From: a bacterium
GTDB taxonomy: Bacteria; Patescibacteriota; Saccharimonadia; Saccharimonadales; SZUA-47
DNA: 36,915 bases
Assembly: GCA_030427445.1 (NCBI GenBank)
Contig: JAUIBQ010000009.1
Coordinates: forward strand, 1-36,915
Direction: 5' to 3'
Part shown: one piece after another, positions 34,373 to 36,770 of the stretch
How the letters are laid out: each line of letters begins with the position of its first letter
Position numbering within the stretch: position 1 is the stretch's first letter
Translations under genes and position numbers: made by a program
The notes under the pieces: generated by a model
What the model was told of the DNA's origin: nothing
Database searches by the model: none
What the model saw: only the letters and a program-made list of their open reading frames with translations

Positions 34373-34415
34373 TTATGACCTTTATTTGTGTAAATAACAA
34401 GATGATGTAAAGGTA

Positions 34416-34444
34416 TTGACTTAATGACATAATTTTGCTATAAT
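34416..34444 (+). promoter_or_regulatory. strong promoter TTGACT-17-TATAAT
   Basis: -35 34416-34421, -10 34439-34444; divergent from dprA. Confidence 0.85.
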
Positions 34445-34450
34445 GTCTAC

Positions 34451-35028
34451 TTGTAAGCATCGTAATGGATGTTCTTACGTACCTTTACCCCTTATTTTAC
34501 CACTACTCTCTCTCGAGATGAGTAGAGTAAAATGATATGTTTTAGAGCTGTGAATATGCCCTGTAGCTCGTTGTTACCCTCCACGAGTTGCAGACAAAAG
34601 CACATTTACTGCCTAGATAGAGGTACCAAGCTCTAAAACACTCACTGGTCACGACCTAATCTTTTGAATTAATTTGTGGCAGATGCAAGCTAGATTGTGT
34701 TTGAACGAGCGAGCAGTAGAAATTACTACTGTAAGCGAGTGAAAAGATAATATAGCGTAGCAAATGTAGCAAATTAAACTAAAGAGCTAGGTGGTGGATA
34801 GTGAATCCCCTTTAACCCCGCATCCCCCTCTCGTTTTGATTAGAGTTTTGGGCAGTGATGACGGATCAACCTTATGGATGGGCTTTCGTATGACTTTTGC
34901 GAGAACATATGAGAGATAAGCCTTCAAGGTGGGTTGAAGGGTGTAATTTTGGGATGTCCTTTGAGAGACGTCCCTAGATATGAGCTTACAGCGGTGCCCA
35001 CCCCCTCTGTAAGCTCTTATTTATTTTT
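34451..35028 (+). ncRNA. candidate large structured non-coding RNA of unidentified family; may extend to about 35150
   Basis: no credible ORF; stems include 34494-34533, 12-bp 34538-34549/34629-34640, 34561-34593, 34714-34731, 34921-34940, 34951-34974, 10-bp 34982-34991/35007-35016. Confidence 0.6.
34982..35028 (+). terminator. candidate terminator: 10-bp stem followed by TTATTTATTTTT
   Basis: GAGCTTACAG-CGGTGCCCACCCCCT-CTGTAAGCTC then T-rich tract. Confidence 0.45.
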
Positions 35029-35049
35029 GGACATCTTAAGCGGAGCCCA

Positions 35050-35131
35050 GCTACGTTCCGTAGCCTCAGAACAACATCTTAGAAAACACGTTTCCAAGAG
35101 TTGGTTCTCTTGCAGAAATCCACCGGATTTC
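35050..35131 (+). other. three further consecutive hairpins downstream of the candidate ncRNA
   Basis: GCTACG-TTC-CGTAGC (35050-35064), CAAGAG-TTGGTT-CTCTTG (35095-35112), GAAATCC-ACC-GGATTTC (35115-35131). Confidence 0.65.
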
Positions 35132-35154
35132 CTCACCCTCTAGTGGCTTTTATA

Positions 35155-35183
35155 TTTGATAATATATTATTTTGTTTTATAAT
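35155..35183 (+). promoter_or_regulatory. promoter TTTGAT-17-TATAAT
   Basis: -35 35155-35160, -10 35178-35183, 9 nt before GTG 35193. Confidence 0.75.
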
Positions 35184-35192
35184 ATATTTATT

Positions 35193-36770
35193 GTGAGAGA
35201 CTATTATAGTTATAACCCAGAACTTGCTGAATTAGTGCGTGATTCGTTTCAACGAGAAGCAAGTGATAACTCGGGAGAAGCACTTGGTACGCTCCTAGCT
35301 CGTACGTTCACTGATATAGATGATGAAGTTAGAGACTATATATACACTGAAAAACCAGGGTATATAAATACTTATGAAGAACTATTTAGCAATCTAGATA
35401 CTGGCAACGAACAGCACGTTTCCGAACAAGAGAGATCACACGAGTCAATCGCTAGACTACTAGGTATCATTAATCAATTGTCAGACTACGACAAAACTCC
35501 GCACAACCATAATGACTACTGGCATAGCGAACGAGGTAGAGCTGTTGTGGATGCTGTACTCAACGGGCCGCCATACGAGTCAAGCGAAGGGTCTATGGAG
35601 TTTGATGATACCGATTCAGACTTATTTCAAGATATACCTCGAGATCCTGTGAACTTTAGAGGTGAGCATGGTTTATTTGAACCTGAGCTGTGTAGCTGGA
35701 CGGCCAACGAAATACGTCGTTCTCTAAAAGATATATTCCAAAATATCGACGAAACTATGCCGGTAGGAGATGTGGCGTCTGAACGAATTAGAGATGTAAC
35801 ATATTTTGGCGGTCATAGGTTTATAAACGATTCAACCATTGATCGCAGAATTATTGAGCTTGCTCGTGTTTCTGGGGGTTTGAGGCTGTATGCATGGACC
35901 GACATCCCTCAAAAAGGTAGGTTATTTAAACGAGATGATTTGAGTGACGATGCGATAAATAGAGAAAAGTTCTATATAGGTCTAGCACGTGATTCATACG
36001 ACACAGACCATTCTTTGTTTATTCCTATACTTTCGAGTAGTTTAGAAGATGGATGCAGTTTTGTCTTGACAGGATCAAACCCTGAAGACATAACGTTCAA
36101 CAACCCGCAAGTACTCAGTCACTTACGCGATATTCTCGCCACAGCAGATGTATATAATGGCGATGAAGAAAACTTAGCCAGAGAGTTTCTTGATGAGATA
36201 ATTGAGGCCCTACGCTATGTCCCTGAAGGAGTTGGCTTGCAGTTGTTCTTAGAACAGCAACTATACAAACAAGTACCAGAAAGCTTGCAAGAGTTGTATA
36301 ATCTCTTGCTGGACAATGGACGGATGGCAGAGCTACCGAGAAGACAGCGCCTACTTACAACGGTCGATGGTGATGAAAAGGTTTTTAACCTTGTTGGTAA
36401 TATTTACGAACGTGAGGATGCAGATAAACAAGAAGGAAGGATAAAATATGAATTTTTCCTTGAAGATGCCGGTGTGGTGCAAGATGGTGACTTGTCAAAG
36501 CGAGTATTTAGGTTATGGCAAGGACTTGACCCAGATATTTATGAGAATGCAGTTGTAGGACCTCGCTTTTCTATAGAAATGACAGAGTTTGAAGATTTAG
36601 AAATACTGTCATATGACGCAGCTACTCATTCATATGAGGAAGCTGATGGTCAGAGTTTAGCAGTGTGTATCTACATATTGCACAAAAAACTACTAGAAGG
36701 TGTGCATGCTCATAGACGACTTGACACACGCTCTGCACGGCCACAGCATTTAAAGTGGTTTGAGACTTAA
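35193..36770 (+). CDS. hypothetical acidic protein
   Basis: about 525-aa ORF; GTG 35193 preferred over 35172 because the earlier start lies in the promoter. Confidence 0.7.
   Translation: MRDYYSYNPELAELVRDSFQREASDNSGEALGTLLARTFTDIDDEVRDYIYTEKPGYINTYEELFSNLDTGNEQHVSEQERSHESIARLLGIINQLSDYDKTPHNHNDYWHSERGRAVVDAVLNGPPYESSEGSMEFDDTDSDLFQDIPRDPVNFRGEHGLFEPELCSWTANEIRRSLKDIFQNIDETMPVGDVASERIRDVTYFGGHRFINDSTIDRRIIELARVSGGLRLYAWTDIPQKGRLFKRDDLSDDAINREKFYIGLARDSYDTDHSLFIPILSSSLEDGCSFVLTGSNPEDITFNNPQVLSHLRDILATADVYNGDEENLAREFLDEIIEALRYVPEGVGLQLFLEQQLYKQVPESLQELYNLLLDNGRMAELPRRQRLLTTVDGDEKVFNLVGNIYEREDADKQEGRIKYEFFLEDAGVVQDGDLSKRVFRLWQGLDPDIYENAVVGPRFSIEMTEFEDLEILSYDAATHSYEEADGQSLAVCIYILHKKLLEGVHAHRRLDTRSARPQHLKWFET

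Follow-up and report, generated by a model that had tools for sequence, protein, structure and literature searches.

A structured RNA gene beside dprA

We analysed a stretch of 36,915 nucleotides (the window), which corresponds to contig C4 of the source genome assembly (966 kb, 43 contigs). The locus at 34416-35023, which is flanked in the window by dprA (PF02481) and topA (PF01131), is very likely a stand-alone gene for a large noncoding RNA that is independently transcribed and terminated and that represents a new family across the order Saccharimonadales; this assignment of identity, boundaries, structure and distribution rests on comparative evidence. A near-consensus promoter of the sigma-70 type is seen in the sequence on the + strand at 34416..34444, with TTGACT at 34416-34421, a 17-bp spacer and TATAAT at 34439-34444, and the promoter consensus TATTGAC...TTTGCTAAAAT was found in 100 of 103 homologues. 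The structured RNA (~575 nt, + strand) is placed at 34451..35023, its start being inferred from the -10 box and its end from an intrinsic terminator at 34982..35016 (+ strand), in which the hairpin GAGCTTACAG/CTGTAAGCTC with the near-invariant loop GCGGUGCCCACCCCCUCU is followed by a T-rich tract. Homologues ranged in length from ~270 to 590 nt.

The initial annotation had proposed the same promoter driving 0.6-0.7 kb without a credible gene, as either one large RNA or a tandem of smaller ones. The promoter claim held, and so did the lack of a gene (see below). The size held in part, the RNA being not quite 0.7 kb, and a single RNA was supported while a tandem was not. That the locus gives rise to one ~575-nt RNA is very likely, with the reservation that its ends are inferred from sequence alone, without transcript data.

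To describe the genomic position, the flanking genes from ~120 loci were clustered and named by Pfam. The resulting gene order was RsuA/RluB-type pseudouridine synthase, der, pth, RNA, dprA, topA and a protein with sigma-70 region 4/HARE-HTH domains. The pth-RNA-dprA-topA order was constant across families, and the divergent family f35 has the same neighbours. The RNA is transcribed divergently from dprA and, in most cases, convergently with pth. Since it has its own promoter and terminator and lies on the strand opposite to both genes, it is not the leader of either. A subset of genomes (L019, L044, L046, L047 and others) has no dprA between the RNA and topA, and the RNA stays beside topA. 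Beyond the RNA, the remainder of the window holds an ORF of 532 amino acids (35172-36770) that has no Pfam match and whose cluster has 3 members in the ~120 loci.

Tests against known RNA families and for coding capacity

The initial annotation had called the locus a large structured RNA of unrecognised family and had suggested that it be checked against Rfam and by covariation in homologues. Both checks were carried out and the claim held, being supported by the lack of an Rfam match, covarying helices (P3, P4 and the terminator), promoter and terminator, synteny and order-wide spread. A search of the whole window with Rfam 15 (4227 models) gave 0 matches at the gathering cut-off, and relaxing the threshold to E 10 at the locus returned only unrelated families at chance level, with no SRP, 6S, tmRNA or RNase P RNA among them; thus no family was found at either gathering or relaxed thresholds. 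Eleven related loci likewise gave nothing against Rfam at E<=0.05. The family matches nothing in Rfam, and no description of the RNA was found in the open-licence literature searched, although one that we have not seen remains possible. Its function is unproven, and the RNA family itself is the novelty.

Individual housekeeping RNAs were also considered. The tmRNA (RF00023) and the RNase P RNA (RF00010, 217 bits) of the source genome lie elsewhere, at C40:1930-2302 and C39:30710-31069, respectively, and the locus was rejected as either. The SRP RNA models (RF00169 and RF01854) found no match in any of 16 related genomes, G000 among them; in the control for this search, RF00169 was detected in 11 of 14 control genomes. 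Searching one complete genome for the SRP core motif yielded a long palindrome as the sole good-looking match, and scanning 41 genomes with an SRP pattern produced scattered matches at chance level. Ffh/FtsY motifs were not found in genome G486; since the record has 40 kb masked, this says nothing about their absence. The model of 6S RNA (RF00013), which forms a long hairpin with a central bubble, had no match at the locus, and in 26 genomes no match exceeded its cut-off. One match below the threshold (E 2.7e-5) was observed at G012:C51:16563-16716 (- strand), close to the RNase P RNA gene of that genome.

The + strand of the locus contains no ORF of >=80 amino acids, and no reading frame stays open across homologues. 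The longest start-to-stop frame had a median of 38 amino acids, and only 2-6 of 100 homologues were open through the core in any one frame. A protein-coding gene was rejected because the frames are closed in most homologues. The sequence TGTTTTAGAGCT resembles a type II CRISPR repeat. It is, however, only one strand of helix P3 in the homologues and is replaced by unrelated paired sequence in f35, and the resemblance was taken as a coincidence.

Covariation supports three helices

The minimum free energy (MFE) of 34450-35160 was -245.8 kcal/mol, compared with -179.8 (sd 5.7) in dinucleotide shuffles (z -11.6). The dense series of stems listed in the initial annotation held, since all the named stems are in the window and most are in the MFE fold. 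Three helices, P3, the long-range P4 and the terminator stem, are backed by covariation, and P3 and P4 both occur in the unconstrained MFE fold of the window RNA. All features described below are on the + strand.

At the 5' end, the P1 hairpin GTAAGCATC/GATG..CTTAC (34453..34478) is kept in homologues despite altered sequence. It is followed by the P2 hairpin ATTTTAC..CTACTC/GAGTAG..GTAAAAT (34494..34533), which is present in the sequence and fold and has a variable tip. The P3 domain (34538..34640) is closed by a 12-bp stem (34538-34549/34629-34640) that is supported by covariation. Among 83 homologues, 98.2% of P3 cells were paired, two-sided changes occurred at 11 of the 12 pairs, and 143 cells carried double changes vs 28 in shuffled controls. 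This alignment was fitted to the structure and is biased towards it; in f35, the raw sequences of P3 are wholly different and the pairing is retained. The P3 domain includes a hairpin at 34561..34593 that displays a near-invariant loop, GUUGUUACCCUCCAC (34570-34584), and is identified by loop conservation. The segment at 34642..34804, which folds as one long arm, is a lineage-specific insert missing from most homologues.

P4 is formed by a 5' strand, CCCTTTAACC (34808..34817), and a 3' strand, GGTTGAAGGG (34932..34941), as indicated by the MFE fold, pairing in homologues and covariation. Counted through motif anchoring without any fitting to structure, the 9-bp core of P4 was fully paired in 112 of 114 homologues, vs a mean of 87.7 and a maximum of 96 in 5000 shuffles. 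Its variants include CCCTTTAAG/CTTGAAGGG, GCCTTTAAC/GTTGAAGGC and CCCTTTCAC/GTGGAAGGG. In the two imperfect cases (L068 and L106), a duplicate CCTTTAA motif was likely picked. The initial annotation had instead drawn a local hairpin, CCTTCAA-GGTGGG-TTGAAGG. This is not what the homologues keep, because GGTTGAAGGG pairs long-range with CCCTTTAACC, and the local hairpin cannot form once P4 is formed.

Downstream of P4, an optional hairpin, GGGATGTC/GACGTCCC (34951..34974), is present in the sequence and fold. For pairs 1-8 of the terminator stem, 799 of 800 cells in 100 homologues were standard pairs, with several Watson-Crick types per position. Because the shuffles used for the covariation counts ignore kinship, significance is somewhat overestimated; the pair types are nevertheless numerous. 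The GUUAG sequence 5' of P3 has two alternative partners, ATTCTAAC on its 5' side or CTAAC ahead of P4, each of which was found in ~70 of 114 homologues. It is possible that this alternative pairing acts as a switch, although this is an inference.

Near-invariant C-rich and G-rich motifs

While the stem sequences vary freely, four motifs are fixed: ACCUU..ACCCC, ACCCUCCAC, GGGUGGG and UGCCCACCC. The apical loop motif ACCCUCCAC was found in 113 of 114 homologues and the terminator loop motif UGCCCACCC in 114 of 114. The pyrimidine-rich leader ACCTTTACCCC (34481..34491, + strand) is conserved and unpaired, and a motif of the ACCUU..A.CCC type was present in 108 of 114 homologues. A G box, GGUGGG (34928..34933, + strand; GGGUGGG in many relatives), lies 5' of the P4 3' strand and overlaps it; GGUGGG was found in 110 of 114 homologues. 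Conserved, unpaired C-rich loops on stable stems are a feature of C-rich-loop regulatory RNAs, and hairpins in the fold show this feature here. A 7-bp internal contact could form between GGGUGGG and the CCCACCC of the terminator loop. This contact is inferred and no more than possible, and it has no covariation support because both partners are invariant.

The RNA is distributed across Saccharimonadales

When 34400-35160 was used as a DNA query, matches were obtained in 40 of 61 genomes, the source genome included. A pattern scan of the GTDB genome set with the terminator loop recovered at least 119 stretches, nearly all of them from Saccharibacteria and with the other landmarks present at consistent spacing; the relatives bear the names Candidatus Saccharibacteria/Saccharimonadales. 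Four pattern matches outside Saccharibacteria (L051, L074, L082 and L116) lacked any other landmark and were rejected as chance.

For the P3 region we built a covariance model, R1, and rebuilt it as R2 with the divergent family f35. Within the order Saccharimonadales, R2 detected the RNA in 188 of 247 genomes, which represent 113 of 132 genera. This prevalence is a lower bound, because searches over 40 genomes had stricter filters. In an even draw of the phylum Patescibacteria, all 24 positive genomes were in the order, and none of the 348 genomes from elsewhere, of which 5 belong to the same class, was positive. Some f35 genera (g57 and g63) gave no or weak matches to R2, and the RNA may have been lost or may be more divergent there. 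There is usually one copy per genome. Apparent second copies in genome G478 both lie at contig ends and are possibly an assembly effect.

An RNA of 270-590 nt that keeps a fixed place and near-invariant loops across almost all of an order of genome-reduced epibionts, the tiny parasitic Saccharibacteria (TM7), probably has an important role. Homologues occur in family f35, for which several genomes are complete or nearly so; should cultured strains fall within it, existing RNA-seq data could be used.

Possible mode of action and alternative explanations

RNAs with C-rich loops are known from other bacteria. RNAIII of Staphylococcus aureus has conserved C-rich hairpin loops able to pair with ribosome-binding sites (PMC2837412), and the C-rich loops of sX13 of Xanthomonas pair with ribosome-binding sites (PMC3771888). 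RNAIII is ~0.5 kb long, and sX13 consists of three stem-loops and is much smaller. The Saccharibacteria RNA resembles RNAIII as a large multi-hairpin RNA with conserved C-rich loops, but no homology has been shown, it encodes no peptide, and it belongs to another gene neighbourhood and another lineage. With sX13 and similar small RNAs it shares stable stems that present C-rich loops, but again no sequence or structural homology has been shown. OLE, ROOL, GOLLD and the raiA motif are similar in being large, strongly conserved structured RNAs with their own genes; the Saccharibacteria RNA, in contrast, matches no Rfam family and is confined to one order.

We propose that the gene encodes a trans-acting regulatory RNA working through its C-rich loops, a reading that as a whole falls just short of an even chance and in which the mode of action is inferred. 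Stable covarying stems would hold up three C-rich segments (ACCUU..ACCCC in the leader, UACCCUCCAC in the apical loop and GUGCCCACCC in the terminator loop), and these segments may pair with G-rich RNA, such as Shine-Dalgarno sites, which only a minority of the mRNAs carry. The G box GGGUGGG would cap the terminator loop CCCACCC and, together with the two partners of GUUAG, may suggest open and closed states. The pairing step itself is less likely than not, as it is inferred by analogy with RNAIII and sX13 and its targets have not been demonstrated. If the loop mechanism is true, the mode of action would be of a known type, that of C-rich-loop RNAs, and the new part would be the RNA family.

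Putative targets were sought in one complete genome, G486 (940 of 1006 kb). GGAGGGT was near 4 starts vs 1.1 in shuffled sequence, a weak signal, and GTGGAGG was near 0 starts vs 1.2. GGAGG occurred near 53 starts vs 26 shuffled, which is expected of any genome that uses Shine-Dalgarno sites. Such sites are scarce: in G486 they precede 110 of 879 ORFs, while other loci have them at 36 of 594 and the window at 1 of 34. In G486, 169 of the 879 ORFs contributed to a -10 box peak at -13/-12 from the ATG, and none of them was among the 110 with a Shine-Dalgarno site. A sharp -10 box peak at -14 to -12 from the ATG was also observed for Saccharibacteria loci (L039-L157) and G486 (L178-L228). Leaderless mRNAs thus appear to be common in these genomes, which is likely but inferred from the sequence alone. 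Because leaderless-type starts are common and Shine-Dalgarno sites few, any Shine-Dalgarno target set would be small.

The main rival, which carries a weight similar to that of the loop-pairing mechanism and is likewise less likely than not, is a housekeeping RNA that acts as a ribonucleoprotein component or as an RNA machine. Its invariant single-stranded motifs would then serve as a tertiary core or in protein binding, without pairing to mRNA. In its favor, the RNA is order-wide, usually single copy and fixed beside housekeeping genes; its invariant motifs are scattered among freely covarying helices; GGGUGGG and CCCACCC are able to form the internal contact; and the G486 test found no specific target set. 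Against it, the RNA bears no signature, catalytic or protein-binding, that is typical of a known family, and the strong C-richness of its motifs sets them apart from most tertiary cores. A bolder version, that this is a new universal housekeeping RNA of Saccharibacteria replacing a job done elsewhere by another RNA, is unlikely, although standard models detected neither SRP RNA nor 6S RNA in the genomes searched. A divergent SRP RNA, 6S RNA, tmRNA or RNase P RNA is very unlikely. The SRP and 6S jobs lack an assigned RNA (in 16 of 16 and in 26 genomes, respectively), but the locus matched none of the four RNAs, tmRNA and RNase P RNA were found elsewhere in the same genome, and no conserved AGCAG/GNRA SRP core was present in the homologues inspected.

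A cis-acting, riboswitch-like leader of a neighbouring gene is largely refuted and all but excluded. The next + strand ORF in the window does start at 35172, but a conserved intrinsic terminator ends the RNA, the 532-amino-acid ORF has no Pfam family and only 3 cluster members, and in many genomes the RNA is followed by pth, which lies on the other strand, and preceded by a divergent gene. A mobile or selfish structured element, which the dispersed repeat directly downstream might suggest, can be all but ruled out as well; it is refuted for the main RNA, which is single-copy in almost every genome and has constant synteny across families, and it applies only to the downstream repeat.

A dispersed repeat downstream of the terminator

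The initial annotation had counted three last hairpins, extending to 35131, as part of the RNA. This claim failed, since these hairpins lie beyond the terminator (~35023), in a dispersed structured repeat of ~100 nt (35040-35143) that directly follows it. Copies of the repeat that are ~68-82% identical were observed elsewhere in related genomes (L233, L234, L014, L033 and L037), some of them abutting tRNA-like sequence.
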